The notes under the pieces: model-generated | Told to the model about the DNA's origin: nothing | The model's database searches: none | What the model saw: the letters and a program-made list of their open reading frames with translations, nothing else | Position numbers and translations under genes: made by a program | Shown here: positions 4,200-19,400 of the stretch, piece after piece | Layout: every line of letters starts with the position of its first letter | Numbering within the stretch: position 1 is the first letter of the stretch | Assembly: GCF_000264945.2 (NCBI RefSeq) | Contig: NZ_CP013070.1 | Coordinates: 310,001 to 374,000 of the forward strand | Source: Sphingobium indicum B90A | Lineage (GTDB): Bacteria > Pseudomonadota > Alphaproteobacteria > Sphingomonadales > Sphingomonadaceae | Reading direction: 5' to 3' | DNA: 64,000 nt

Positions 4200-5048
4200 T
4201 CAGCGCTTCGGCTTCAGCGCCTCCGCCAGGGAAACGGTCGCGCTGCCCCGCCGCGCGGGCTGCGCCTGGCTGGGGTCCGCCTTCCACCCGCTGAGATAGA
4301 GGACGGCCATCTGTTCCGCCGTGCGGCCGTCCTCGTCCGCCGCCGCCGCGAAATGCTCGGCCGCCCCGACCAGCGCGTCGCGTCGCAGCGCGGGGGGCCG
4401 CGAAGCCAGAACATTGCCGGCGCCCATGCCCCGCAAGTCGTGCATCAGCCGCAGCATATCGCCATAGCGCACCGTCAGCACATCGCCGTCCGCGACCGGC
4501 ATGGTGAAGCCCGCCCGCGCCAGCAGGTCGCCCGCCGAGCGCACGTCGACCTGCGGATGGACATGCTGCCCGGCCCGGTCCCCTTCGCCCGCCATCAGCG
4601 CGGCGCGCAGCCGGGGCAGCGAACCCGCCCCCGCGAAGGCCGCCAGCATCAGCCCGTCGGGCCGCAATATCCGCCGCATCAGGATCAGCGCGCCGGGCAG
4701 GTCGTTGACGCTGTCCAGCGTGCCGCAGGCGATCACCAGGTCGAAACTGTCATCGGCAAAGGGCAGGGCGTCCTCGTCGGCCTGCACGCCGCCCTGCGCC
4801 CTGGCCGCCGCAAAGCCGGGATCGACGCAGACGACGCTCTTTCCCATCGCCTCCAGCGCCGTCCTGGCGCTGCCGTCCGGGCAGCCGATCACCAGCGCTT
4901 CCTTCAACTCGCGCTGCACGTCGCCCAGCCGGTCGAGCAGTTCGTCCAGCATCATGCGGTAGAGGAAGTCATGCTCGGCAAAGCGCGCCATCATCCGGTC
5001 GCGCCGCCTGGCGCGCAAGGCTCGGTCGAAGATGTCGGGACTGGTCAT
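4200..5048 (-). CDS. SAM-dependent methyltransferase (BioC-like fold)
   Basis: About 282 aa from an ATG at 5048 with AAGG five bases upstream. The N-terminus (FDRALRARRRDRMMARFAEHDFLYRMM) resembles the BioC/NDUFAF5-type methyltransferases that start with a helix before the SAM fold. Motif I is degenerate (ALVIGCPDG). Acidic residues follow in VVCVDPGF, and DLVIACGTLDSVNDLPGAL is the class I post-I region. Probable substrates are a biotin precursor or a complex I subunit; this cannot be settled here. Divergent from comF. Confidence 0.75.
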   Translation of the reverse strand: MTSPDIFDRALRARRRDRMMARFAEHDFLYRMMLDELLDRLGDVQRELKEALVIGCPDGSARTALEAMGKSVVCVDPGFAAARAQGGVQADEDALPFADDSFDLVIACGTLDSVNDLPGALILMRRILRPDGLMLAAFAGAGSLPRLRAALMAGEGDRAGQHVHPQVDVRSAGDLLARAGFTMPVADGDVLTVRYGDMLRLMHDLRGMGAGNVLASRPPALRRDALVGAAEHFAAAADEDGRTAEQMAVLYLSGWKADPSQAQPARRGSATVSLAEALKPKR

Positions 5049-5091
5049 GGGGGCCTTGTGCATGGGCGAAGGAGCGGGAACAAGGGAGATG

Positions 5092-5847
5092 ATGTCCCGC
5101 CTCCTCCTTCACAAGAGCGTTCCGCTGCTCAAGGCCGCGCTTCGCCCGTTGGCCGATTACGCCCTGCCGCCGCGCTGCCCCGGCTGCGGCGAGATCGTGG
5201 ATGCCGACCATGCCTTCTGCCTGGCCTGCTGGAGCGGGATGCGGTTCCTGGGCGAACCCTGCTGCGCCCGTTGCGGCCTGCCGTTCGAATATGATCGCGG
5301 GGACGGCGCGGAATGCGGCGCCTGTCTGGCCGATCCGCCGCCCTATGACAGCGCGCGGGCGGTGCTGGCCTATGGCGATGTCGCCCGCGCCGTGGCGTTG
5401 CGGCTGAAATATGGACGGCGCATCGGCCTTTCCCGGCTGATCGCGAAGCAGATGGCGCGGCAGGTGCCGGCCATCGGAAATGCCGTCATCGTGCCGGTGC
5501 CCTTGCACCGTTGGCGCTTGTGGTGGCGCGGCTTCAACCAGTCGGCGCTGATCGCCCGCCACCTGGCGCGGCTGACCGGCCTGCGGGCGGACAATCACGC
5601 CTTGCTTCGCATCCGCCGGACCCAGCCCCTGCGCGGAATGACCCCGAAGGCGCGGGCGCGGGCTGTCCGCGGCGCATTCGCCCTTAGTCCGGGCCATGAG
5701 CTCAAGGGGTGCGCCGTTCTGCTGATCGACGACGTGCACACCAGCGGCGCGACGGCCGCCGCCTGCGCCCGGGCGCTGAAACGCGGCGGCGCGGCGAGCG
5801 TTCATCTGCTGTGCTGGGCGCGGGTGCTGCCGGACGGCGGCGATTGA
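5092..5847 (+). CDS. comF: ComF-family phosphoribosyltransferase-like protein
   Basis: About 251 aa. It has an N-terminal four-cysteine zinc module (CPGCGEIV and CCARCG, then CGAC) and a C-terminal PRTase motif (VLLIDDVHTSGATAAAC), the ComF layout. In naturally competent bacteria ComF acts in DNA uptake; in alphaproteobacteria its role is uncertain. Two adjacent ATGs at 5089 and 5092 follow GGGAG closely, and upstream ATGs at 5047 and 5062 are also possible, so the start is uncertain by up to 15 residues. Confidence 0.85.
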   Translation: MSRLLLHKSVPLLKAALRPLADYALPPRCPGCGEIVDADHAFCLACWSGMRFLGEPCCARCGLPFEYDRGDGAECGACLADPPPYDSARAVLAYGDVARAVALRLKYGRRIGLSRLIAKQMARQVPAIGNAVIVPVPLHRWRLWWRGFNQSALIARHLARLTGLRADNHALLRIRRTQPLRGMTPKARARAVRGAFALSPGHELKGCAVLLIDDVHTSGATAAACARALKRGGAASVHLLCWARVLPDGGD

Positions 5848-5891
5848 CAAACAGGCGCCGAACCACAATTTCGGCGATCGAGGAGTAAGAC

Positions 5892-6149
5892 ATGGCGAAG
5901 GTCGAAATCTATACCAAGGCCTGGTGCGGCTATTGCGCGCGGGCAAAGGCTCTGCTGAACGAGAAGGGCGTGGCGTTCGAGGAATATGACGTCACCATGG
6001 GCGGTCCGAAGCGGCAGGAAATGCTGGACCGCGCCAATGGCGGGACGACCGTGCCGCAAATCTTCATCGACGGCCGCCATGTCGGCGGCAGCGACGACCT
6101 GGCGGCGCTCGACCGGCAGGGCAAGCTCGACGCCTTGCTGGGGGCATAG
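5892..6149 (+). CDS. grxC: Glutaredoxin 3
   Basis: An 85-aa dithiol glutaredoxin with the CGYC active site (positions 12-15), the cis-proline motif TTVPQIFIDG and the glutathione-binding GGSDDL. It reduces protein disulfides and glutathione mixed disulfides in the cytosol. GAGGAG sits about eight bases before the ATG. It is followed by the C-N hydrolase five bases after the stop, so the two are probably co-transcribed with DUF1178. Confidence 0.93.
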   Translation: MAKVEIYTKAWCGYCARAKALLNEKGVAFEEYDVTMGGPKRQEMLDRANGGTTVPQIFIDGRHVGGSDDLAALDRQGKLDALLGA

Positions 6150-6154
6150 GCCGG

Positions 6155-6985
6155 ATGCGCGCCGCCATCTTCCAGATGACCAGCGGGATCGATCCCGCCG
6201 CCAATGCCGCCGCCATCGCGGACATGGCCGCGCGCGCCAGGGGGGAGGGGGCGGACATGCTCTTTACGCCGGAAATGGCCGGCTATCTGGACCGCGACCG
6301 GCAAAGGGCGGCGGCGACCCTGCGGTCGGAGGCGGACGACCCCGTCCTCGCCGCCCTAAGGGAGGCGGCGGCCAAGCAGGGCCTGTGGGTGCATCTCGGC
6401 TCCACGCCGCTCAAGGATGAGCGCAGCGACGGTCGGTGGGCCAATCGCAGCTTCATGATCGACGACAGAGGAGAGATTCGCGCCCGTTACGACAAGATCC
6501 ACCTGTTCGACGTCGATCTGGCGACGGGCGAAAGCTGGCGCGAATCGTCGGTCTACGGGCCTGGCGAACAGGTTGTCGCGGTCGATACGCCCTGGGCGCG
6601 CATGGGATTGTCGGTCTGTTACGACATGCGCTTTCCCGATCTCTACCGGGCGCTCACCAATGCCGGCGCGACGGTGTTGCTGATGCCGGCCGCCTTCACC
6701 GTGCCGACGGGGAAGGCGCATTGGCACATATTGCTGCGGGCGCGGGCGATAGAGGCGGGCTGCTTCGTCATCGCCGCCGCGCAGACGGGCCATCATGCGG
6801 ACGGCCGCGACACCTATGGGCACAGCCTGGTCGTCGACCCATGGGGGGACCTGGTGCTCGACATGGGCGAGCAGGCGGGCCTTGCCCTTGCGGAGGTCGA
6901 CCTGTCGCGCATAGAGGACGTGCGCGGGCGGGTGCCCGCGCTCGCCAACCGGCGATCCCTGCCCATGGATGTGACGCTATCGTGA
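6155..6985 (+). CDS. Carbon-nitrogen hydrolase (Nit1/Nit2-like amidase)
   Basis: A 276-aa nitrilase-superfamily protein. The catalytic triad is visible: Glu in FTPEMAGYL, Lys in RYDKIHLFD and Cys in LSVCYDMRFPDLYR. This subgroup includes omega-amidase and deaminated-glutathione amidase; the neighbouring glutaredoxin gene makes the latter attractive but unproven. The stop overlaps the next GTG start (GTGA), giving coupled translation with DUF1178. Confidence 0.88.
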   Translation: MRAAIFQMTSGIDPAANAAAIADMAARARGEGADMLFTPEMAGYLDRDRQRAAATLRSEADDPVLAALREAAAKQGLWVHLGSTPLKDERSDGRWANRSFMIDDRGEIRARYDKIHLFDVDLATGESWRESSVYGPGEQVVAVDTPWARMGLSVCYDMRFPDLYRALTNAGATVLLMPAAFTVPTGKAHWHILLRARAIEAGCFVIAAAQTGHHADGRDTYGHSLVVDPWGDLVLDMGEQAGLALAEVDLSRIEDVRGRVPALANRRSLPMDVTLS

Positions 6986-7498: not shown

Positions 7499-7575
7499 GC
7501 ACCCGTAGCTCAGCAGGATAGAGCATCAGATTCCTAATCTGAGGGCCACAGGTTCGAATCCTGTCGGGTGCACCA
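7499..7575 (+). tRNA. tRNA-Arg (anticodon CCU)
   Basis: A 77-nt cloverleaf with an encoded CCA end. The acceptor GCACCCG pairs with CGGGTGC, the anticodon stem is TCAGA/TCTGA with loop TTCCTAA (anticodon CCT), and the T-arm is CAGGTTCGAATCCTG. Sequence character changes directly downstream of its 3' end, making it a likely island insertion point. No second copy of the tRNA 3' end was noticed in the window. Confidence 0.96.
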
Positions 7576-8791: not shown

Positions 8792-9490
8792 TCATCCGGC
8801 AAATCGTTGTTCGATATGAAGGTCGAGGCCCGTCGCCAGAGCGCTCGTTGGATAGGCATCTACCATCACGAGCATATCCGCAGTAGCTGCTGAGACTAAG
8901 ACGTTGGCTAGAGGCGCGCTCCAATCGAAACCCAAACGAACGTTGGCAGCGTCCTCGAGGCGCGCTCCATGACGCTTCCGTAAGCGAGAGCGTACTTCCT
9001 CGAAGGTTGGTGCAATCATCGCAAAAAATATTTGGACGGTATGGGTGGCTTCAACTGAGCAGATGTCGCCGGTGAAAAGGCAAGCCGGCATCGTGTCCTC
9101 ATTGGCTCCCAGGCTGCCATTTCGACTATCGTCACTGCCACTGAAGCCGAAGTCAGTAAAAAATGCATTCGCAGGAATGTCGTCTAACAATCGCGGATCT
9201 GCATCGTGGTCCAGTCCCAAGGAATGGAAGGCAATAGCGCGGCGGAAACCTTCAGGGCGCCGGCACGCTTCAAATGCAGACTGGCCGTCGAAAAGTTCTT
9301 TAGGCTCCATGAGCCAAGCAAAAGGATCACGGTAGCTTCGCTCTCGGACGAACCGGCTTGCCGTTTCGCTAGCGACATAGCAGAGTCGGGCGACAGCTCG
9401 ATCGAACTGCTTTTTTCGCCCGCCTTTCTCGAGTTCGCGAAGCTGCTCCGAGTCTTGCTGAATCTCCCCGCGCTGAATGTTATCTGTCAT
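8792..9490 (-). CDS. Hypothetical protein with MbcA/ParS-like segment
   Basis: 232 aa from the ATG at 9490. The segment PFAWLMEPKELFDGQSAFEA followed by RAIAFHSLGLDHDADP resembles, by eye, the MbcA/ParS/Xre (DUF2384) toxin-binding module, where W-L-x-x-P-x-x-x-F-x-G and a following helix are typical. The C-terminal half (GFDWSAPLANVLVSAATADM) is not recognised. Divergent from the ArsR-type gene across an inverted repeat, so probably controlled by it. The family suggestion is weak. Confidence 0.5.
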   Translation of the reverse strand: MTDNIQRGEIQQDSEQLRELEKGGRKKQFDRAVARLCYVASETASRFVRERSYRDPFAWLMEPKELFDGQSAFEACRRPEGFRRAIAFHSLGLDHDADPRLLDDIPANAFFTDFGFSGSDDSRNGSLGANEDTMPACLFTGDICSVEATHTVQIFFAMIAPTFEEVRSRLRKRHGARLEDAANVRLGFDWSAPLANVLVSAATADMLVMVDAYPTSALATGLDLHIEQRFAG

Positions 9491-9542
9491 ACCACTCTCC
9501 CTTGTCTGCCCCGCCACCTATTTCGCAAACGTTACAATTCGG

Positions 9543-9564
9543 TATATCGCGATTCACCGATATA
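9543..9564. promoter_or_regulatory. Inverted repeat, candidate ArsR-type operator
   Basis: TATATCG, eight bases, then CGATATA: a perfect 7-bp inverted repeat in the divergent intergenic region between the genes at 9490 (-) and 9655 (+). Its position and symmetry fit the operator of the winged-helix regulator encoded at 9655, possibly controlling both directions. Confidence 0.5.
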
Positions 9565-9654
9565 ATCTGGATCCTATTGTGTGGAGCGTCCGGGGATGGC
9601 TATGGTGAGCGCTTGGGATCGTTCCGGGGGGGAAGGTCTCGCGGACTGGGATCG

Positions 9655-9939
9655 ATGGAAAAAATCAACGCTTTGCAAGTGCTTTCGGCACTCTCGGTTG
9701 AGACGCGCTTTGACGCTGTTAAGCTGCTTTCGGTGGTAGGATCGGACGGGTTGCCAGCGGGCGAATTGGCCCGCCGTCTGGGCGTGAGACAAAATACGCT
9801 GAGCGATCATTTGGCCGTTCTCACTAGAAGTGGAATTCTATCGTCAGAACGTCAAAGTCGGTCCATCATCTATAGATTCAATCCGATGGTACTGCAAAGC
9901 TTGAACGCATTTCTTACGCGCGCACTGGCACAAAACTGA
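9655..9939 (+). CDS. ArsR/SmtB-family winged-helix regulator without metal cysteines
   Basis: A 94-aa protein: ALQVLSALSVETRFDAVKLL, then GELARRLGVRQNTLSDHLAV (the recognition helix-turn-helix) and the wing ILSSERQSRSIIYRF. This is the ArsR fold. It contains no cysteine, and the usual ELCVCDL metal site is absent, so it does not look like a metal sensor. The start is uncertain, because no good ribosome site sits directly before the ATG at 9655. Transcribed away from the 8095-9490 genes. Confidence 0.75.
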   Translation: MEKINALQVLSALSVETRFDAVKLLSVVGSDGLPAGELARRLGVRQNTLSDHLAVLTRSGILSSERQSRSIIYRFNPMVLQSLNAFLTRALAQN

Positions 9940-9972: not shown

Positions 9973-10324
9973 CACCCGGACTCCTTTCAGACCCAGTGAT
10001 TTCACCGAATTTAAGAAAGTTGCAATCCGATGGGCGACAGGTGATCACGCCATTCAGCGCCGGTGACATTTCTCTTCAAATGGAATCTGGTGCCACCACG
10101 CCCGGTATTGAGAGGGGGGCTTTGCCGATGCGCTGTGTCTGAATGCAGAGCGCGCCGCCGTCACATGCTCAATGCAGGAATTGTTTGAGCCTCCTCGGGA
10201 ACCCGGACGCACCGCGCTCAATGCCACGAATTTTCCAATCTGCCTGGCCCAGAATCTGGGCTGACCAGATTATCGTCTTAAGAGGGCGGGATCCTTCGGC
10301 AAGCAACGCCGGAAGGATGAAATT
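9973..10324. other. Gene-free stretch before the TnsB-like pair
   Basis: No coding frame I can support and no obvious promoter. The only notable element is GGAAGG at about 10310, which serves as ribosome site for the TTG start at 10325. Confidence 0.4.
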
Positions 10325-11335
10325 TTGTACGACTGGATTGTTATAGACGAGCTTACAGCGTCGCCACCGCAGAATTGGGATCGGATCTTGCTGCGATGGC
10401 GCATTCTCGCGCCTCATATTTGTCGAAACAATCTGACGAGGCGGGAAGTAGATCGCATTGCTGAAGCCGCGCAAATCTCTCGTCGTCAAGTTTATGCAGA
10501 TCTGCGCAAATACCGGCACTATGTTTCTGGAGATCCGGTTAAGGGGCCTATGACGGGCGTTCATTACCATATTTGCCAAAGGCAAGAACAAATCATCGCC
10601 GAAGTGATCGAAAATATGCGTGGCGGTGCGAAGCTCCACGAAGTTATCAAGGAGATCGGCCGTATATGCGCGCGCCGCCAAGTGACTATACCTTCGGCAA
10701 CTGCGATCGGAACGCGATTTGGCAAAGTTAGTGCCGCAGTAAACCTCAAAGGCAGGCTGATCACGAGGTGTGACGCGGTCCTTGATATCTGTGGGTTGCC
10801 AGTAGAGAGCCGTGATCATGACGGAAATGTGAGATCACTTCACCTGCTCACAATATTGGACACTCAAGATGGAGCCGTTCTGAATTATCGACTGTCGGTA
10901 GGTTTTCCTCCGCCGCGCGAAGTGCAAAATCTGATTGCTGCCTACGCAAAGGAAAGCCCGTCGTCGATCAGATTGCTCCTGACGAAGGCATTCGTCGACA
11001 GCGTGAAAATCCTCATCGCAGGCATCCCCGCTGGTGTGGTTCTAGATTATAGTCGGAATATCCGGGCGGGTAGGGCAATCAAGGCAGCGCTGGGCTCCCG
11101 TTTAGGCCGCGTCAAGTTGCGAATTGATCAGAAAACGTGGGCACATGGTTCTGTAATGCCGCCAGTTGACTTTAGCATGGCCGATGCCGTCATTCGCCGC
11201 CTTTTGAACCCGAAGACGGGCTCAAATAGCACCAATTCAATATCTGGCCCTTCATTGCATCAACTCACCCTAACAGATGTGGCCCAACTGACGGGCGAAC
11301 GAATCGGGTTTCCACTGCATCCAGAACCGGGTTGA
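10325..11335 (+). CDS. TnsB/TniA-like protein with defective DDE site (A)
   Basis: 336 aa from a TTG start with GGAAGG seven bases upstream. The order of parts follows TnsB/Mu transposases: an N-terminal helix-turn-helix (EAAQISRRQVYADLRKYR), a second DNA-binding segment (VTIPSATAIGTRF), then an RNase H-like core. The core shows VLDICGLPV (first Asp), LLTILD...VLNYRLSVGFPPP and VVLDYSRN (second Asp). The K-G-x-V-E-R position reads HGSVMPP, so the catalytic Glu is missing. The C-terminal beta-barrel is absent (336 aa against 773 for the neighbouring TnsB). It overlaps protein B's gene tail to tail by 71 bp. I infer a DNA-binding regulator or accessory factor rather than an active transposase. 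Confidence 0.65.
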   Translation: MYDWIVIDELTASPPQNWDRILLRWRILAPHICRNNLTRREVDRIAEAAQISRRQVYADLRKYRHYVSGDPVKGPMTGVHYHICQRQEQIIAEVIENMRGGAKLHEVIKEIGRICARRQVTIPSATAIGTRFGKVSAAVNLKGRLITRCDAVLDICGLPVESRDHDGNVRSLHLLTILDTQDGAVLNYRLSVGFPPPREVQNLIAAYAKESPSSIRLLLTKAFVDSVKILIAGIPAGVVLDYSRNIRAGRAIKAALGSRLGRVKLRIDQKTWAHGSVMPPVDFSMADAVIRRLLNPKTGSNSTNSISGPSLHQLTLTDVAQLTGERIGFPLHPEPG

Positions 11336-12431
11336 AGATGCTCTCGAGCTCGTCAGCCAATGCCGCTAGCTGGCCGGGCCTATCTTCTGATATATTCCCG
11401 GGGCTGGTGCCTCCACGATCTGCGTTATAGCTTTCAACAGCGCTGCCGATCAGACGGTGGGCCAGTTCTATATCGATCCCCGGCGATGCTGAGATTGGAG
11501 GATCTTGGTCCAGTCGGGATAGGCGTTTAAATCGAAACCTGCCAATTCGATCACCTACGAGTCGCATGATCGCTTCTCCATGCCGTCGCGGGCCACCTCC
11601 TACAAGTTTGATGATCGGCTTCGTTTCGCATGGAGATGAGCCCTCAAAGATCGAGTTGGCTAGTTCTTCGAGACCGGGCGGGATGACCCATAGGATTTCT
11701 TCGATGCCGGGTGCGATAAATTCGTCCGACAACCCAGCCATAGCTCGTTGGCTGAAATTGCTGAGGGCAAGCGTCAGACCCAAGCCAATGCCATCGCCCA
11801 TCGTTAGTCCATATCCCAGGATCCGCCGCGACTGCCTGTCTATGATGAGGGTCAACACTGCGTAACGGTCTGAACCAAGCGCAGACACCGCAAGCTCGAG
11901 ACAAATCTGATCTATAAGGATCTCAGCGCCGATCCGGGGTTGTGAGTGGGCAAAGGGCTGCTGCCTTCTGAGAATATGGACTCTACGCCTTATCGCCGAT
12001 GCTCCAGGATAGTCGATGTTGTGGGTTGCGCACGCTGCGCGAACGAAGCCTTCCACCGTCGCCAACCGCGCATCGTGCTTGTGTCGCAAAAAGGACTGCA
12101 AAAGCTCTTCGACCTGAGGCTTCAGTCCATCTCTCGTGGGTGCCGCGCGCGCGACATTACGGTAGCCCGGCAGCAAGGCGCGAGAAGGCCCGAATTCCCG
12201 GACTTTTGCAATTAGGGCGTAGAATTGTCTTCCTGAAATTCCGATCTCATGTGCGATTGCCTCAGCATCCACTCGCATGCGGTCCGACTTGGATAAGAAG
12301 CGATCGATCGCCTCAAGTCGGGTCCGAACGATCTCTTGCTTTTCCCTGCTGTGCCCAGCCAACACCCCGAGTTCATCCTCGATGGTCCCAGACGGGGTCA
12401 GATAACGTGCAATTAGTGCTTCAAAACTCAC
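11265..12431 (-). CDS. TnsB/TniA-like protein with defective DDE site (B)
   Basis: 388 aa from a GTG start. It shares protein A's layout: a helix-turn-helix (IAHEIGISGRQFYALIAKVR), a second segment (DYPGASAIRRRVHIL), and a core with ILIDQICLEL (first Asp) and LTLIIDRQSRRILGYGLTMG. The second-Asp motif, usually V-D-N-G-x-E-F, reads IPPGLEE, and the Glu region reads HGEAIMRL, so at least the second Asp is lost. SAVESYNADRGGTSP matches the TnsB Y-N-x-x-x-H-x-x-x-x-S-P segment. It is transcribed away from tnsA across a region with 16-bp repeats. An active transposase seems unlikely. Confidence 0.65.
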   Translation of the reverse strand: MSFEALIARYLTPSGTIEDELGVLAGHSREKQEIVRTRLEAIDRFLSKSDRMRVDAEAIAHEIGISGRQFYALIAKVREFGPSRALLPGYRNVARAAPTRDGLKPQVEELLQSFLRHKHDARLATVEGFVRAACATHNIDYPGASAIRRRVHILRRQQPFAHSQPRIGAEILIDQICLELAVSALGSDRYAVLTLIIDRQSRRILGYGLTMGDGIGLGLTLALSNFSQRAMAGLSDEFIAPGIEEILWVIPPGLEELANSIFEGSSPCETKPIIKLVGGGPRRHGEAIMRLVGDRIGRFRFKRLSRLDQDPPISASPGIDIELAHRLIGSAVESYNADRGGTSPGNISEDRPGQLAALADELESIFNPVLDAVETRFVRPSVGPHLLG

Positions 12432-12473: not shown

Positions 12474-12546
12474 AGTGCTGTACTAACTGATGCAGATTCA
12501 TGTTGCAAGCGCTGCAGCACCGGGATATCCAGTGCAGCACTAACTG
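12474..12546. repeat. 16-bp direct repeats between TnsB-like B and tnsA
   Basis: AGTGCTGTACTAACTG at 12474-12489 and AGTGCAGCACTAACTG at 12531-12546 differ at two of 16 positions and are 57 bp apart. A partial copy (GCTGCAGCAC) lies at 12511. They may be TnsB sites of a Tn7-like end, since tnsA normally sits beside an end. They may instead be operators for the TnsB-like proteins in this divergent promoter. No clear inverted partner was found elsewhere. Confidence 0.55.
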
Positions 12547-12662: not shown

Positions 12663-13523
12663 ATGAGCTTGATTACGTCGGTTAAGAATAATTCGTATCT
12701 ATCGGTTCCTGATCCGCTAGCTTGTCTTCCCGCCCGGGCAGGTGAGTCCGGAGGACTATACCGTTACCATCCAAGTTGGACCGCATTTGGGGAACCGTAC
12801 ACGTCTTTGGCTGACCTGGCCTATCTGGGTAAGCCAACGTTGCGTTCGGTAAATTCGGCTAACTCGTACAAGATCACGCATCGCAGCAGCGGCAGCACCT
12901 TCGCGTATCTCAGTGTGAAAAACGGCCGAACGCAAACTGGGGAATCGCATTACGAATTGCAGTGGGCTCAGGAACTGGAAGTTGACCCTAATTATGTCGA
13001 TTACCAGCTTCACGGCATGGAGGTGAACTGGAAACGCGGGGATCACACGGCCCGGTATACGCCTGACGCTGTAGCGCTTACGGTCGATGCGAAGGTCGAA
13101 GGTCATGAGGTCAAAGCGACCCGCAGCTATTTCCAGATGGGAACTTATTCCAAACTCATCGACAAAGTTGATCGAGACCTTGCCAGCTACGGTATCGCAT
13201 TCAGGAAGGTGACTGGGGCGGACATCGAAGCAAATCGTCGGCGTCATCACAATATCACTACCGCCTTCCAGGAGCGATTTACCCACTTCAGCCTCCGACA
13301 GGAGGATGCAGTTCGAAATCTTCTGGAGCGCAACTCAGAGCAATCGTTCGCCCGCGTCTTGGAGGCGATCGATCGAGAGGCGCGTCGAGCTCGACCGATA
13401 GTCAGCGCGATGTTGTGCCGACGTAAGCTCGCTTACGATCTGAACCAGCAAATCACCAGCGAAACAGTCATTCGTTCGGTCGATCCAGTCGCGAGCTGCC
13501 CGCCAGACATTCGCGCTCTCTGA
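12663..13523 (+). CDS. tnsA: TnsA-like endonuclease of a Tn7-like transposon
   Basis: 286 aa. TnsA cuts the 5' ends of the transposon so that it leaves the donor cleanly. Restriction-endonuclease-fold residues are visible: E98 in GESHYELQW, D135 in RYTPDAV and E149-x-K151 in GHEVKATRSYF, matching the TnsA E/D/(Q/E)-x-K pattern. A basic helical C-terminal part follows, where TnsA contacts TnsC. GGGGGTG lies seven bases before the ATG. First gene of a four-gene set transcribed rightward, in Tn7 order. Confidence 0.85.
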   Translation: MSLITSVKNNSYLSVPDPLACLPARAGESGGLYRYHPSWTAFGEPYTSLADLAYLGKPTLRSVNSANSYKITHRSSGSTFAYLSVKNGRTQTGESHYELQWAQELEVDPNYVDYQLHGMEVNWKRGDHTARYTPDAVALTVDAKVEGHEVKATRSYFQMGTYSKLIDKVDRDLASYGIAFRKVTGADIEANRRRHHNITTAFQERFTHFSLRQEDAVRNLLERNSEQSFARVLEAIDREARRARPIVSAMLCRRKLAYDLNQQITSETVIRSVDPVASCPPDIRAL

Positions 13524-13575: not shown

Positions 13576-15897
13576 GTGCATGATGCATCGGCGGCGGTAC
13601 CTTCACGAGTATTAGCCATGCAATATCAATCGGAAACATTTCTACAACCCGTATCTGGGGCCGAGGCAGAGTTGTTGAACCAGGCGGCGGGCACTTGCTT
13701 TCGCGCCGGAAATAGAATGGTGCGCTTTGAGAAGGTGAATGAGGCTGGGACTGTCGAACTCCGCGACCTTAAGACTCTCAAGCTGCTACAGGTGTTTGAC
13801 GATCAGGCAGGATCAAAAACCGAAATAACGCCTGAATGGCTTCGCGCCGCATATGCGCAGGGGCTGCTCCAGCCAGTTCATGAGCCCAAGAATGCATCCG
13901 AGCGCCAGAAGCGAAACCTACTTCTTGATCCCGAACTCGCCGATCAGAAAGACGCTAAGGCTCGGTGGAGGTACTCGCTGTGCTGGCGTATCATCGAAAG
14001 CGATGTCTTAAAAACTGACGAGGCATATTCGGAATGGCTCGCGAAGCACTATGGCGATTGCCCTCTCGATCAAAAATTCCCTTGCCCTTCGGCGAGTAGC
14101 GTACGGCGCTGGGTCCGCCGATTGGAGGGATGTAAGCGCGTTGGGGCGCTGGCCTCGTCTGCAGGGCGTCCACGCGGGCATTCTCAGCTGGCGCCGGAGA
14201 TCGATGCTCTGACGACGGAGGCAGCGCTCCGATATTACGAGCCGGGGGCCAAAATCGTCGCGGTCCAGAGCTGGCTGCATAAAAAAATTGACGAGCTCAA
14301 CGCCTGCCGTTTGAACACATCCGGCAAAGCCGCTACCTTCGCGTATCCTTCCAAAGAGACTTTGCGCAAACGTGTCCATCAATTTAGGTGTCATGAGACG
14401 GTAAAGGCGAAATCGGGCACTGTTGCCGCTGATATCATGTTTCGCGGCTCAGGGGAGCCGATGCGAACCACGCGTCCGCTCGAACTTTGTTTCATGGACG
14501 CCACGACGCTCGAACAGACCGTCGTAATGGGTGATGATTGGGCGCTTCCCTCCAATAAGGCAAAGATTACATTACTTATGTGTAGCTTTACTCATGCTAT
14601 AGTGGGTGGATCCGTATATGTGGGTCCGAACAGGCATGAAACGTCAGTGAATGCTATACTAGATTGCATGCTGCCAAGCTTCGTTCCGGAAGCAATGTTG
14701 AACGATTTTCCGGAGCTTGCCAATATCTTCGGCAGACCTGCTGCGATACTGCCCGACAATGAACAGGCTCTCATCGGCCCGAGCATGATTCCAGCTCTCA
14801 ATGAGGCTGGTATCACGGTCATGTTGCCGCCGCGGAATACGCCTACAGCCAAGGCCGTCCTGGAGCGTGCTTTTCGCTCGATTAAGGAAAAGCTGGAAAC
14901 GGTGCCGGGCACCATTTTGGGCCCTGGGCGCCACCAGAACTCCGATGATGACGGCATAGCGTCTGCTACCCTCAATCTAAACCAGCTGCGTGTACTGGTG
15001 TCTCAAATTATTGCGGAGCATAATGTAAGTTCATCGAAAGGCTTGGGGGGACGATCTCCTCTTCAGGTCTGGATGAGTAGCGCCAACCGGTTCGCTACCC
15101 CGATGTTCGAAGACATCAATCACATTCGACGCGTGCTTGGGCGAACTACGACTGCTCTTTTGACACGAGACGGGATCGAACATGACGGCATTCGTTACCG
15201 TGATTCACAGAAGGTAACCGGATTGCTCGAGAGCCTGGGCCGATTGCCGAGAGCGAAGGAACGGAAGGATGGATCTCGTGTCATTCGAGTCAAAATCCGT
15301 CGCTATGACGGGAACCTCGACACCATTGATGTGTATGACGAGAATACGGGACAGTATGTTACTCTCCCGTCTACACAGCCAGAATATACTCACAATCTAA
15401 CGGCGTGGGATCATCAATACTTACAGCGCGAAGCTAAGAATAGCGGAAAGGCGTTCAAGAGCCAGAACGACCGCTTGAATGCAAGGGCGCATACCCTGCA
15501 AATGATAGATCAATTGGCGCCCAAGCTGGCGTTTCAGCGGCGGCGCAACATGCAAGCCTTTTATGAATCGTCAAAGCTCCAGAATTTGACAGGTCGTGCC
15601 TTGATCCCGTTTCCTAGCGACGCAATCACTTCACCGCAGGGAACCTTTGAAAGCCAGCGAATGGATGATGGCCTTCCGCCAGAAGTCATAAAAGGGCCGA
15701 TGCCGGGGATCCAAACGAAATATCGGGCTCCGGCCCGATCTGACGACTACGGCCGTGTCAACTCAGCTGTCCGAGCCGACGAGCTGGATTGGGGTAGTGT
15801 GCAGATCGAAGATATGACTGGAGACCCCGAAACCGGCTTGATGAGTGTGGACGACTATATCGATGAGGATGATGCCTTCCGTGATGGGGATGTATGA
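13576..15897 (+). CDS. tnsB: TnsB DDE transposase of a Tn7-like transposon
   Basis: Up to 773 aa; an ATG at 13618 would shorten it by 14, and neither start has a clear ribosome site. TnsB binds the transposon ends and joins 3' ends to target DNA. The Mu/Tn7 integrase core has an intact triad: D308 (LELCFMDATTL), D394 (AILPDNEQAL) and E430 (KAVLERAFRS). N-terminal DNA-binding domains include SASSVRRWVRRLEG. The C-terminal domain is long and ends in an acidic tail (DDYIDEDDAFRDGD), as expected for contact with TnsC. Its stop overlaps tnsC. Confidence 0.9.
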   Translation: MHDASAAVPSRVLAMQYQSETFLQPVSGAEAELLNQAAGTCFRAGNRMVRFEKVNEAGTVELRDLKTLKLLQVFDDQAGSKTEITPEWLRAAYAQGLLQPVHEPKNASERQKRNLLLDPELADQKDAKARWRYSLCWRIIESDVLKTDEAYSEWLAKHYGDCPLDQKFPCPSASSVRRWVRRLEGCKRVGALASSAGRPRGHSQLAPEIDALTTEAALRYYEPGAKIVAVQSWLHKKIDELNACRLNTSGKAATFAYPSKETLRKRVHQFRCHETVKAKSGTVAADIMFRGSGEPMRTTRPLELCFMDATTLEQTVVMGDDWALPSNKAKITLLMCSFTHAIVGGSVYVGPNRHETSVNAILDCMLPSFVPEAMLNDFPELANIFGRPAAILPDNEQALIGPSMIPALNEAGITVMLPPRNTPTAKAVLERAFRSIKEKLETVPGTILGPGRHQNSDDDGIASATLNLNQLRVLVSQIIAEHNVSSSKGLGGRSPLQVWMSSANRFATPMFEDINHIRRVLGRTTTALLTRDGIEHDGIRYRDSQKVTGLLESLGRLPRAKERKDGSRVIRVKIRRYDGNLDTIDVYDENTGQYVTLPSTQPEYTHNLTAWDHQYLQREAKNSGKAFKSQNDRLNARAHTLQMIDQLAPKLAFQRRRNMQAFYESSKLQNLTGRALIPFPSDAITSPQGTFESQRMDDGLPPEVIKGPMPGIQTKYRAPARSDDYGRVNSAVRADELDWGSVQIEDMTGDPETGLMSVDDYIDEDDAFRDGDV

Positions 15898-16877
15898 TGT
15901 CTGACCGACCAGAGGCAGAGGGTGGCTACTCCGTCCGCCCAACCACGGGACATTTGTTGCCTCAATGGGATGATGCTGGCACTGCGCGCGAGAGCTTCGC
16001 CCAAAAGGCGTATGGCGAGATCTACGTGCCCTATCCACCCCAGACCGCTATCATGCAACGCATTGAAGCACTCAGAAGCTCATCGCTGGGCCGCCGAGGT
16101 CAACCGCTTCCCGGACTCCGCTTGTCGGAAGTCTCCCAAGCCGGAAAAAGCGCGACGCTACAGCGTTACATGTTTGACCTTCATGAGAAATCTCGGGCTG
16201 ACGGCGACTACAACCCGAACAGAGTCATCTATGTCGGACTGAAGCGACGCATTACATGTAAAATGTTGTACCAACATATCCTAAAAACCTTAGGAGATCC
16301 CAATGCGGATCGAGGTAACCTCGAAATTTTGTCACAACGCATGGAAGAATTTCTTCCTCGATTGGGCGTCGAGCTGCTCATCGTGGATGAAGTCCAGCAT
16401 CTGGCGAATAATCGTGCGGACAGCAGTCAGGTTACGGATGAACTGAAATCCTTTTTGGACGCGGGTCTTGTACCTGTTGTGTTTGCAGGCAACGATGAAT
16501 CGCTCAGATTCTTTGAGGAAAATAATCAGCTCTCTGCTCGTCTAGGCATACCGCTCGAACTTTCGCCTGTAAGCGTAAAGAGCAAATCTCAGACCTCCGC
16601 CTTCAAAACATTCGTGGCGAAGCTTGACCGAGCGGTTCATGCTGCCTGTGGGATGCGTCAGTTGTCGAGATTTGACGATGCCGGCATTGTGAAGGGGCTA
16701 TACCTTGCTTCTGGGGGCCACATCGGGCGTGTTTGCCGCATTGTTGGTGCAGCACTCAGCTTTGCATCTCGACGCGATGCTGACTGCATCGAGGTCCATG
16801 ATCTCTCCCTCGCTGTTCGCGGGTTGGCGGTTCCATCTAAATGGACTCAGGATGACCCATTCGACAAAGGCCGCTGA
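15894..16877 (+). CDS. tnsC: TnsC/TniB AAA+ ATPase of a Tn7-like transposon
   Basis: A 327-aa AAA+ regulator that links target selection (TniQ) to TnsA/TnsB. The Walker A region reads SEVSQAGKSATL (79-89): GKS is kept, but the first glycine of G-x4-GKS is a glutamate. Walker B is LLIVDEVQHL (161-170). FAGNDESL is a sensor-1-like strand and ARLGIPLELSPVS resembles the arginine-finger region. The start overlaps the tnsB stop (ATGATG across TGA), so the two are coupled. ATPase activity is likely. Confidence 0.9.
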   Translation: MMSDRPEAEGGYSVRPTTGHLLPQWDDAGTARESFAQKAYGEIYVPYPPQTAIMQRIEALRSSSLGRRGQPLPGLRLSEVSQAGKSATLQRYMFDLHEKSRADGDYNPNRVIYVGLKRRITCKMLYQHILKTLGDPNADRGNLEILSQRMEEFLPRLGVELLIVDEVQHLANNRADSSQVTDELKSFLDAGLVPVVFAGNDESLRFFEENNQLSARLGIPLELSPVSVKSKSQTSAFKTFVAKLDRAVHAACGMRQLSRFDDAGIVKGLYLASGGHIGRVCRIVGAALSFASRRDADCIEVHDLSLAVRGLAVPSKWTQDDPFDKGR

Positions 16878-16878
16878 C

Positions 16879-18780
16879 ATGGTGAGCAGCAGGTCAAAAC
16901 CGATGTGGGCCAAAGAACTCGGATCAGCGGAACCCCTCGCGATTTCGCTCAAGCCGACCGCCGGGGAGAGCCTTATAGGGATGATCGCGCGGGCAACCCG
17001 TGAGAATGTTTTGTGGGCAACGAGGATCATTTTGGGCCGGTCTGGTTATTCTGCCGGCCCTGGTGCCGTTGGGATGAAGGGAATTGATCATGCGTCGCTG
17101 ATCGCGCTGCAGCTTGGATGTTCGGTTGATGACGTGCGACTGCGGTGCCATCCCTACCTGCTTGAAGGTGCGCGGTCGGTGATTAAATGGGGCGGTTTTG
17201 GGCTCTATCGGGGCCAACTTATCGTTAAAACAAGGCGTGTTTCTCCTGCTTCTCTAGAAGCAGCCGATCACCATAGGGCGGATTGGATGAATGCTTTGCT
17301 GCCCTATTGCCCTGAGAGCTTAGAGCGACTCATTGATACATGTGTCTTCTGTGGGTCGCTCCAACGATGGCGCAACAGCTGGGGCATTGGATATTGCGAT
17401 CAGTGGAGTTGCCGCAAAAGGCTTGAGCATCCCACGGGCGAAATTCTGAGCGGCTCAGACGCCCATCAATATCGCAGGTTTGCCGCGCTCGTGGCGGCTG
17501 ATCCGAAAGTGAGGCGTGCCGCAATCGACCGCCTTCCTCCGGCGTTGAAGCATATCCCCTCAGCGGCGTTGGCGAATTTCATTCCCAGACTGGGAATGGT
17601 TTTTCGTTCGACGAGTGATTGTGCAAATATGAAGTTTCTCAATCAGATACCTCCGGCTGAGCTTGCTGCAGGCGCGGCTATGGGGATGGCTCTCATCGAC
17701 GATTGGCCTCGAGGCCTTAGAACGTTCACCAGCGATGAGTTTGCAAAACGCGAGCGTAATGGCAATGCGGCGACGAAAGCGTTCCGTGATAACTTTCGCG
17801 AGCTAGGTCGCGCCTGGGTGCCTGAACAAGCGAAGGCCATTCGGGACGCCGTACCCGAAATTTATAGTTATAGAGGCGGGAAATGGATTGCGATGCGCGA
17901 CCCCGTCATGTCCTCCAAGGCAGCGAGCGCGTTTTTGCGCATGTCCATCAGGGACCTGGTCAAACTGCGGGAAGCGGATCTGATTAAAAATCGGTCCACC
18001 GGACCAAAGAGCAGACTTCTCACCCTCTATGACCGCTCTGCCGTTGAGGAGCTCGCTCGAAAGCGAAATGCTTCAGCAATTGCCGCAAGTGTAGCTGAAC
18101 GCCTCGGCGTTCCTTTCTATGCCGTAGAGCAGCTCGCTTGCCTTCGCTTTCTGGAGGAGGAGCGGGATCCGTGTATCAAGTTGCTGAATCCGACATTGCG
18201 GATAGTCACGCGAAGTGTGGATGAGCTTCTTCATAACCTTCGAGAGGTATCGGCTGGGGGAACCCCGCCCAGAGATGCAGTTCCCCTTCGAACTGCTTTG
18301 AAGGTGGTGGGAGGATGTTTCAAACCTTGGGGGCCAATCGTCGACGTTCTTCAACAAGGATTATTGCCGTTTTGGTTTGATGGTAAAAAACGATTTGCAG
18401 ATTCTGTTCGAGTCATGTTGTCGGATTTCGTTAAGTTTAGACAAGTATCTTTCGATTATACCGAATATCCCGAATTTCTTTTCAAGGGTGGTCTCTCCCA
18501 ACGTGACGTGATCGAAGTGTGGAACATTTCAGCTCCCAAGATGATGCATCTCATGAAAACGGACGTGCTGAAATGGAGACGTGTAGGTCTTGCGCTTGAA
18601 GCGGACAGCACTGCTGTTTTGGAAGTGGCTCGAAAAGTGATCTCATACGGCGAAATCGCGTTGAAAATGGGCGTTATGCCAACGTCGGCGAGAGCGCGAG
18701 TGAACCGAAAGAAAATTCCACGAGTGCTGTTTGGTGTTTCTCGAGAGAAATTCGATTTAGAATTTCCAGAATACCTGTAG
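16879..18780 (+). CDS. tniQ: TniQ/TnsD-type target-site selector, long form
   Basis: About 633 aa from the ATG at 16879, one base after the tnsC stop, with AAAGG upstream; an ATG at 16852 is an alternative. The TniQ N-terminus is seen in LAISLKPTAGESLIGMIARA. A zinc module follows with C155-x2-C158 and C173-x4-C178 (CVFCGSLQ, YCDQWSC). The long C-terminus has helix-turn-helix-like segments such as SVAERLGVPFYAVEQLACL and GEIALKMGVMPTSARARV. Long TniQ proteins like Tn7 TnsD recognise a fixed attachment site; the site is unknown here, though tRNA-Arg lies upstream. Confidence 0.85.
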   Translation: MVSSRSKPMWAKELGSAEPLAISLKPTAGESLIGMIARATRENVLWATRIILGRSGYSAGPGAVGMKGIDHASLIALQLGCSVDDVRLRCHPYLLEGARSVIKWGGFGLYRGQLIVKTRRVSPASLEAADHHRADWMNALLPYCPESLERLIDTCVFCGSLQRWRNSWGIGYCDQWSCRKRLEHPTGEILSGSDAHQYRRFAALVAADPKVRRAAIDRLPPALKHIPSAALANFIPRLGMVFRSTSDCANMKFLNQIPPAELAAGAAMGMALIDDWPRGLRTFTSDEFAKRERNGNAATKAFRDNFRELGRAWVPEQAKAIRDAVPEIYSYRGGKWIAMRDPVMSSKAASAFLRMSIRDLVKLREADLIKNRSTGPKSRLLTLYDRSAVEELARKRNASAIAASVAERLGVPFYAVEQLACLRFLEEERDPCIKLLNPTLRIVTRSVDELLHNLREVSAGGTPPRDAVPLRTALKVVGGCFKPWGPIVDVLQQGLLPFWFDGKKRFADSVRVMLSDFVKFRQVSFDYTEYPEFLFKGGLSQRDVIEVWNISAPKMMHLMKTDVLKWRRVGLALEADSTAVLEVARKVISYGEIALKMGVMPTSARARVNRKKIPRVLFGVSREKFDLEFPEYL

Positions 18781-18979
18781 TTTAGCGTGCGCGCGGGATT
18801 TTTCGAATAGACGGAGAAATGGACTGCGCTGATCGAGCCGACGCGCAACGAAGCTGACTATTATCGGGGCTAGCTGGGCCTACCAGCGGTAGAGGTGTGC
18901 GTGTGCGATCCCCATTTGCGCGCTTTGGGCAACCAGCTGACGCCGGATAAATGTTTGCAACTGATCTACGCAGAATGTT
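18781..18979. other. Decayed DNA downstream of tniQ
   Basis: No intact gene. A broken plus-strand frame reads EKWTALIEPTRNEADYYRG, a stop, then VCDPHLRALGNQLTPDKCLQ; I do not recognise it. The stretch probably marks rearranged material at or near the far side of the transposon genes. Confidence 0.35.
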
Positions 18980-19144
18980 TCAATGCCGCTTGCAACGGGA
19001 GAGCCGTTCATAAAGATAATAAGTCTGCTCGCTGACCCCCATCCGGCGGCACGCCTCAGCGGTCCACGCCCGCTGCGCCAGCACAATCTCAACTTCACAC
19101 ACCTTGCCGATGATCTCTTCCAGCTTGTCCTTCTTGCTTGGCAT
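18980..19144 (-). pseudogene. IS3-family OrfA stub
   Basis: From an ATG at 19144 the frame reads MPSKKDKLEEIIGKVCEVEI, then AWTAEACRRMGVSEQTYY. This is the N-terminus of an IS3-group OrfA (helix-turn-helix part), where TAEACRRIGVSEQTYYRWR is typical. After YYLYE the similarity ends and the frame stops at 54 aa, so only the first half of orfA remains. Bases to 19200 may contain the element's end, but no terminal repeat could be confirmed. Confidence 0.7.
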
Positions 19145-19400
19145 TCAATATCCCCTCCGTGGTCCAGATTATCATAGTGTCTGGGCCACTCAGCGGGGCA
19201 GATTCAATAGTAATCCGTTCCCGTTTGGATCGCAGTCATGCCGCGCGACGGCCCTTCGTGAACGCGGCCGATTCTCCCGCAATATTTTGCGGTCTGCCCT
19301 GAAAAACATTCGTTTGCGACGCGAATGGAGACCGACCAACTAAGAGAACCCATCATAGTCAGTCTTGTGGATTTGCAACCCGGATAGGAGAGGATTACCC

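Follow-up and report, generated by a model that had tools for sequence, protein, structure and literature searches.

The locus examined here, in Sphingobium indicum B90A, raises the question of what two genes related to the transposase gene tnsB, called A and B, do directly beside a complete set of Tn7-like transposition genes. The window, that is the whole stretch of DNA analysed, has a length of 64,000 nucleotides. The genes of the locus are the following, in window coordinates.

10325-11335, + strand: gene A, 336 aa, TTG start
11265-12431, - strand: gene B, 388 aa, GTG start
11265-11335, no strand: tail-to-tail overlap of A and B, 71 bp
12663-13523, + strand: tnsA, NF033179 match below cut-off
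13576-15897, + strand: tnsB, 773 aa, full length, D308-D394-E430 intact
15894-16877, + strand: tnsC (TniB/AAA+), PF05621 match with E 3.8e-22
16870-18780, + strand: tniQ/tnsD-like gene, frame open from 16705, start not fixed

Gene content of the locus and descent of A and B

The tnsA-tnsB-tnsC-tniQ genes beside A and B are intact and all lie on the + strand, and the window TnsB matches solved TnsB proteins. The tniQ/tnsD-like gene (16870-18780) has no Pfam TniQ match and was named from its position and from the homologues that occupy the same slot in relatives. A first description of the locus, made from the DNA letters and here called the sequence-only reading, had reported A and B as open frames with usable start codons adjoining a complete tnsA-tnsB-tnsC-tniQ set, and this description stands. 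The 71-bp overlap (11265-11335) that it pointed out is also present, but is partly peculiar to the window copy, as P0001, a relative of A with 95% identity, ends before it. By eye, the first usable start of the window A is the TTG at 10325, with AAGGA 7 bases ahead. The start in P0001 lies eight codons further upstream, and window positions 10301-10327 do not contain it.

Pfam, NCBIfam and PADLOC gave no match of meaningful score for A or B. Sub-threshold matches of B were to HTH_28 (E 0.091) and to a transposase PHROG (E 0.036), and a member-by-member family scan (27 B and 15 A proteins) gave weak HTH matches, in at most four members each, plus one DUF match. Comparison of profiles revealed homology between A and B (hhalign probability 99.8, E 2.5e-28, 294 columns) and between each of them and TnsB (A, probability 94.9, E 4.8e-8; B, probability 95.8, E 7.5e-9). 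Both correspond to the middle part of TnsB; their alignments stop at residue 486 of 773, the end of the RNase H-like core, and both lack the C-terminal part. The A profile also matches TnsB structures (E 1.2e-6). Its matches to dTor, which are designed repeat proteins, were judged spurious.

The structural model of B shows an RNase H-like core preceded by two helical segments, and the top Foldseek matches of this model are TnsB, MuA and IstA (TnsB 7pik with E 1.2e-11; 4fcy was also matched). The AlphaFold model of A has a mean pLDDT of 47, with a good N-terminal helical segment and an unusable core; the core and the second segment, which is related to that of TnsB, were assigned from the profile comparison. 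The TnsB-like order that had been proposed for both proteins is borne out for B by model and Foldseek, and for A by the model in the N-terminal segment and by profile only in the core. In TnsB of Tn7 and CAST elements (7pik, 8aa5, 7svw, 9bw1), too, helical DNA-binding segments precede an RNase H-like core, and the homology of these proteins to A and B is detectable by profile and fold. A and B belong to the TnsB family by descent, for A via the sequence profile alone, and their designation as degenerate relatives of TnsB agrees with the profile and fold evidence.

All three D-D-E positions are kept in 24 of 24 full-length TnsB proteins of these elements. In the B family the first Asp is present in 27 of 27 members and the Glu in none of the 27. 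An Asp adjoins the D2 position in 18 of 27, not including the window B, and an Asn near the end of the core is invariant (27 of 27; N336 in the window). The window B keeps its first Asp (D174) and lacks the second Asp and the Glu; the sequence-only reading had noticed the loss of the second Asp, and the Glu is missing as well. In the A family, where the columns are less sure, the first Asp is present in 11 of 27 members and absent in 16. The window A keeps it as D154 and lacks the Glu, with I246 opposite TnsB E430 in the profile alignment, while TnsB D394 falls opposite a gap. Of the motifs formerly ascribed to A, the first Asp and the absence of the Glu hold, but the second Asp of TnsB lies opposite a gap and HGSVMPP is not the Glu position. 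This stretch reads GSELPP in P0001 and ESELPP in P0002, and GSVMPP was dropped as a mutated catalytic Glu, given that E430 aligns with I246. Compared with active TnsB, A and B lack a complete D-D-E and the C-terminal part, have half its length, and occur as a pair beside the active tnsB; from their residues, both are predicted to be catalytically dead.

Distribution and exchange of the pair

The window TnsC was used as query in 396 genomes of the host order, which gave 40 rows corresponding to 38 loci in 34 genomes, and genes at these loci were called with profiles for all six proteins (A, B, TnsA, TnsB, TnsC and TniQ). A and B both adjoin tnsA in 25 of the 38 TnsC loci, and all 25 are in the host family. 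The other loci comprise one with A and without B (L087), two with neither gene (L094 and L095), three at contig ends (L086, L102 and G223, the surroundings of the last being outside the data) and seven distant Tn7-like loci without the pair. In the usual arrangement the tails of A and B face each other and B is divergent from tnsA: the pair is convergent in 22 of 25 loci and tandem in three (L088, L090 and L091), and the tails of the convergent pairs overlap in 12 and are separated by 2-269 bp in 10. In a midpoint-rooted TnsC tree the pair-bearing cores fall on one side, together with L094, L095, L087, L086 and L102. The exception is L045 (3952-10234), where A and B lie beside a deeply different TnsC that groups with the distant ones.

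Some of these loci have peculiar gene contents. L045 possesses a short TnsA, and TniQ was not detected at the locus. Three tandem A-like genes and one B are found in L088 (623-4611), and in L095 two genes that look ParB-like by eye (4874-6657) occupy the place of A and B.

A profile of close relatives of B had matches in 23 of the 396 host-order genomes (E 1e-5), some of them longer transposase ORFs. Among 385 genomes of the class and 398 of the phylum, strong B matches were present in the host family only (2 and 4 genomes), and the remaining matches were ORFs of 572-660 aa, taken as TniA-like transposases. Two plasmids matched the window TnsC. Both genes are found on plasmids of S. parapaucimobilis, where they are annotated as 'hypothetical protein', and of Novosphingobium sp. 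THN1, whose record has no annotation. A plasmid search with the window B or P0014 as query gave no match, and neither did a search of viral contigs. A relative of B is present in Novosphingobium sp. ST904, where the contig ends soon after, and a relative of A in Qipengyuania sediminis.

The closely related pairs of L040 and L085 have pN/pS values of 0.24 for A and 0.18 for B. Further comparisons of A or B gave 0.40-0.79, with synonymous sites mostly saturated, and a value of 0.88 in one comparison was discarded as an alignment artefact of 5 codons only. Damaged copies of A occur in L038 (232 aa), L035 (internal stop) and L049 (core not alignable). The presence of both genes in 25 of 38 loci and the pN/pS of 0.18-0.24 in one close pair are in agreement with the earlier statement that the pair is maintained. 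A search for the same pair beside tnsA in other genomes had been proposed as a check, with random relics as the reading if conservation were lacking; the pair was found in those 25 loci.

Co-variation was analysed with Mantel tests on 27 elements, namely the 25 pair-bearing loci plus L128, from the S. parapaucimobilis plasmid, and L129. TnsB of L040, L044 and L046 and TnsA of L049, which are in pieces, were omitted, and L045, L003 and L087 were unused. A and B correlate with each other (rho 0.67, p 0.002, the permutation floor), as do TnsA, TnsB, TnsC and TniQ among themselves (rho 0.56-0.80, p 0.002, again the floor). Correlations of A or B with any Tns protein range from -0.07 to 0.08 (p 0.19-0.80), with A at -0.05 and B at -0.07 against TniQ, and 0.03 and 0.02 against TnsC. 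That A and B co-vary with each other and with none of TnsA, TnsB, TnsC and TniQ is a new observation. Many similarities of A and B are near noise, therefore the zero correlations are weaker and single cases count more.

The clearest single case is that of L040 and L085, which are 74% identical in A and 81% in B, and 22% in TnsA and 23% in TnsC. One block of 3.2 kb with 75% DNA identity spans A, B and the gap upstream of B, and ends 21 bases inside the L085 tnsA and about 190 bases before the L040 tnsA. Related cores with different pairs are found in L050 and L098 (normalised scores of 0.70 for TnsB, 0.17 for A and 0.15 for B) and in L030 and L032 (0.67, 0.06 and 0.13, respectively). L088 and L090 share 90.8% DNA identity over 7.8 kb of the core and have normalised scores of 0.97 for TnsB and 0.17 for B, which has no DNA match. 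The L090 A is 90% identical in DNA to the outermost of the three A genes of L088 (a value of 39% for A belongs to another of the three), so only B was exchanged there, and an exchange of A between these two loci was rejected. The pair is inherited together and exchanged between elements independently of tnsABC-tniQ.

Truncated forms of TnsB are also present in these elements. In L040 (13085-15483) and L046 (4561-6989) tnsB is divided between two ORFs, with the junction near profile position 474. The first tnsB ORF of L003 (6018-8216) ends at 498, which may be a plain break. In all three loci the parting point roughly coincides with the position at which A and B terminate, close to where the RNase H-like core ends. 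Between B and tnsA, L038 (8971-9600) and L128 (10946-11467) have small ORFs homologous to the N-terminal part of TnsB, which make up a third kind of truncated derivative.

Repeated sites upstream of B and possible roles of the pair

Repeats had been placed in 12474-12546, in the gap between B and tnsA. They are present, and the exact sites are corrected as follows.

12474-12489, + strand: repeated site 1, AGTGCTGTACTAACTG, putative operator, pair p 0.02
12531-12546, + strand: repeated site 2, AGTGCAGCACTAACTG, putative operator, 57 bp from site 1

A pair of 16-bp repeated sites upstream of B was found at p<=0.05 in 9 of 27 elements (Fisher p 2.3e-5), counting L040 and L085 separately though they are not independent, and no significant pair in the other 18. 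The control regions gave 2 of 26 upstream of A (p 0.74), 5 of 27 after tniQ (p 0.15) and 0 of 27 before tniQ (p 1). This better-controlled test replaces an earlier count of gap repeats (97 pairs vs 51.6 expected). The sequences of the repeated sites vary from element to element. When the motif of each element's own gap was scanned in 10 loci, with up to 1-4 mismatches, the good matches were in the gap. Matches outside it were three with 3 mismatches in the window, one in L085, and one in L034 that is a single palindrome within the 5' end of B.

Upstream of B, the DNA is similar above all shuffles in L040/L085 (124) and L040/L046 (37; shuffle maximum 29), and equals the shuffle maximum in L046/L085. 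L040 and L046 are related in both pair and core and thus do not discriminate; the cores of L040 and L085 are unrelated. Only in L040/L085 does the upstream DNA clearly travel with the pair and not with the core. In L088 and L090 about 1 kb upstream of tnsA follows the core, therefore the pair there need not own the tns promoter. A sigma-70 consensus scan of the B-tnsA gap in the window found no promoter. Read by eye, TTGCAA-17-TATCCA lies between the two repeated sites.

Our preferred explanation, with moderate confidence, is that A and B are two catalytically dead TnsB paralogues that form a dedicated, exchangeable, DNA-binding regulatory ('immunity') module, comparable to phage immunity. A and B, singly or as a heteromer, would bind to the repeated sites between B and tnsA, and the divergent tns promoter would thereby be repressed or gated and the transposase kept low. 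An incoming element with the same operators would be shut down, as by a prophage repressor. A TnsB-like scaffold that binds DNA and oligomerises could serve as a sequence-specific repressor after the loss of catalysis, which would account for the retention of the fold. The independent exchange of regulator genes is a feature of prophage-type immunity that the pair displays, and its behaviour resembles that of repressor and operator because a conserved pair is exchanged apart from the transpososome proteins, with the upstream sites along in the clearest case. The sequence-only reading had suggested regulators or immunity factors, with which the modular inheritance and the repeated sites are consistent; the role itself we infer. 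A more specific version is tentative, namely that a heteromeric repressor of two dead transposase paralogues defines immunity groups, that pair and operators are exchanged in the manner of the immunity regions of lambdoid phages, and that a transpososome-like looped complex on two operators possibly silences tnsABC.

Unlikely, and next in order, is that A and B serve the transpososome as accessory subunits, either end-binding or architectural, in which case dead TnsB protomers would take up part of the TnsB sites and help to pair the ends without cutting. TnsB and MuA assemblies normally contain non-catalytic protomers, A and B retain regions related to the TnsB DNA-binding segment and the RNase H-like scaffold, and 7pik and 4fcy are fold matches of B. 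However, the lack of co-variation between the pair and TnsB disfavours this role; the pair does not co-vary with TnsC either, and one same pair lies beside unrelated cores. The sites are in the B-tnsA gap, with no good matches elsewhere in 10 loci, L034 apart.

A little less probable again is inhibition by protein contact, with A and B as dominant-negative TnsB subunits that poison transposase assembly. Truncated transposase inhibitors exist in other elements: Tn5 Inh and the P-element KP protein are truncated, catalytically dead brakes made from the transposase gene itself. A and B are likewise truncated, dead and TnsB-like, and further truncated TnsB pieces exist in these elements (the small ORFs of L038 and L128). 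Nonetheless, Tn5 Inh and KP act on their own transposase, and an inhibitor of this type would be expected to follow the TnsB of its own element; A and B are separate genes that do not, and the TnsB C-terminal part is missing from both.

More doubtful still is that A and B direct insertion together with TniQ and TnsC, as selectors of the target or as factors of target immunity. The contacts of TnsB with TnsC lie in its C-terminal part, which A and B do not have, and co-variation is absent with TniQ (-0.05 for A, -0.07 for B) and with TnsC (0.03 and 0.02). The pair lies on the far side of tnsA, outside the tniQ operon, and unlike a Tn7-like target selector is neither co-operonic nor co-evolving with tniQ. 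Tn7-like elements do co-opt dead recombinases, as described for TnsF of Tn6022-like elements in the accessible text of PMC10293859. TnsF, a recombinase without catalytic activity that the element retains as a dedicated component, parallels A and B in this respect, but it has a tyrosine recombinase fold, is in a putative operon with tniQ and is a target selector. Finally, decay from a duplicated transposase or nested element, with A and B as its relics, is very improbable, as conservation of the pair contradicts random relics: although some copies of A are short or broken (232 aa in L038; L049; L035) and the window A lacks, by eye, the upstream start of P0001, 25 of 38 loci keep both genes in place (22 convergent), pN/pS is 0.18-0.24 in the close pair, and D1 and N are invariant in 27 of 27 B.

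For the regulatory module there are partial parallels in known systems. The repressor c of phage Mu is divergent from the transposition operon, has a DNA-binding part related to the transposase, and has operator and enhancer in between; it resembles the pair in its divergence, in its transposase-related DNA-binding part and in the position of the operator, which for the pair is putative, and differs in being a single protein without a dead RNase H core. In lambdoid phages, immunity regions consisting of repressor and operators are exchanged between elements as a block. These are phage systems, and the likeness of A and B to them, by analogy, would rest on the block exchange of genes. In type V-K CAST elements, genes for MerR (CvkR) and Arc-type repressors lie ahead of a core gene and run opposite to it, and CvkR has a conserved binding motif, according to the accessible text of PMC9938897. 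These repressors are like the pair, a putative regulator, in being encoded by the element in reverse orientation ahead of a core gene, but as described there they are single small MerR or ribbon-helix-helix proteins that are not transposase-derived. Membership of B in the CvkR family was rejected, as B models as helical segments and an RNase H-like core and not as a MerR-type fold.

No such pair is described in the accessible text of the Tn7 survey PMC10293859 or of PMC8649781, and dead TnsB paralogues as element components were not found in a literature search made largely without subscription papers. Within that search and those partial texts, the earlier statement that no named Tn7-like component has this arrangement holds. 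With the pair, the known parts of a group of Tn7-like elements are extended by a component of two unannotated genes. If the regulatory module exists as proposed, a transposase would have been duplicated and disarmed twice to become the switch of its own element. Such a module would also offer an answer to how Tn7-like elements keep themselves and one another in check, and programmable transposases could perhaps be given an on/off control derived from it.

Ends of the element and flanking genes

The search for a terminal TGT...ACA pair with a 5-bp duplication in the window gave none above shuffles. In the plasmid locus L128 the best end-pair score was 19, a value without shuffle comparison, and end repeats searched for as exact words in 21 loci did not form a consistent family. 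A tRNA-Arg (CCT) gene is located at 7499-7575 of the window. Among the matches listed from 61 genomes of the genus, none of the left flank extends past about 7590, and most of the long ones stop between 7540 and 7588, which coincides with the 3' end of tRNA-Arg or lies close to it. The island probably starts at the 3' end of this tRNA gene, since the flank matches stop by about 7590. In G198 the island exceeds the stretch examined. Directly after tniQ, the window contains an IS-like stretch (18800-19203, IS3-like by eye) that is multi-copy in the genus.

Genes for other proteins are found on both sides of these loci. Beyond A, the window encodes an ArsR/Csa3-like HTH protein (9502-9939, + strand), with homologues also beyond A in L030, L032, L089 and L098, and a 241-aa protein without family (8792-9517, - strand), with homologues beyond A in L030 and L032. 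After tniQ, the S. parapaucimobilis plasmid locus (L128, 18334-22241) possesses TIR, S8 peptidase and caspase-family genes, a defence-like cargo.
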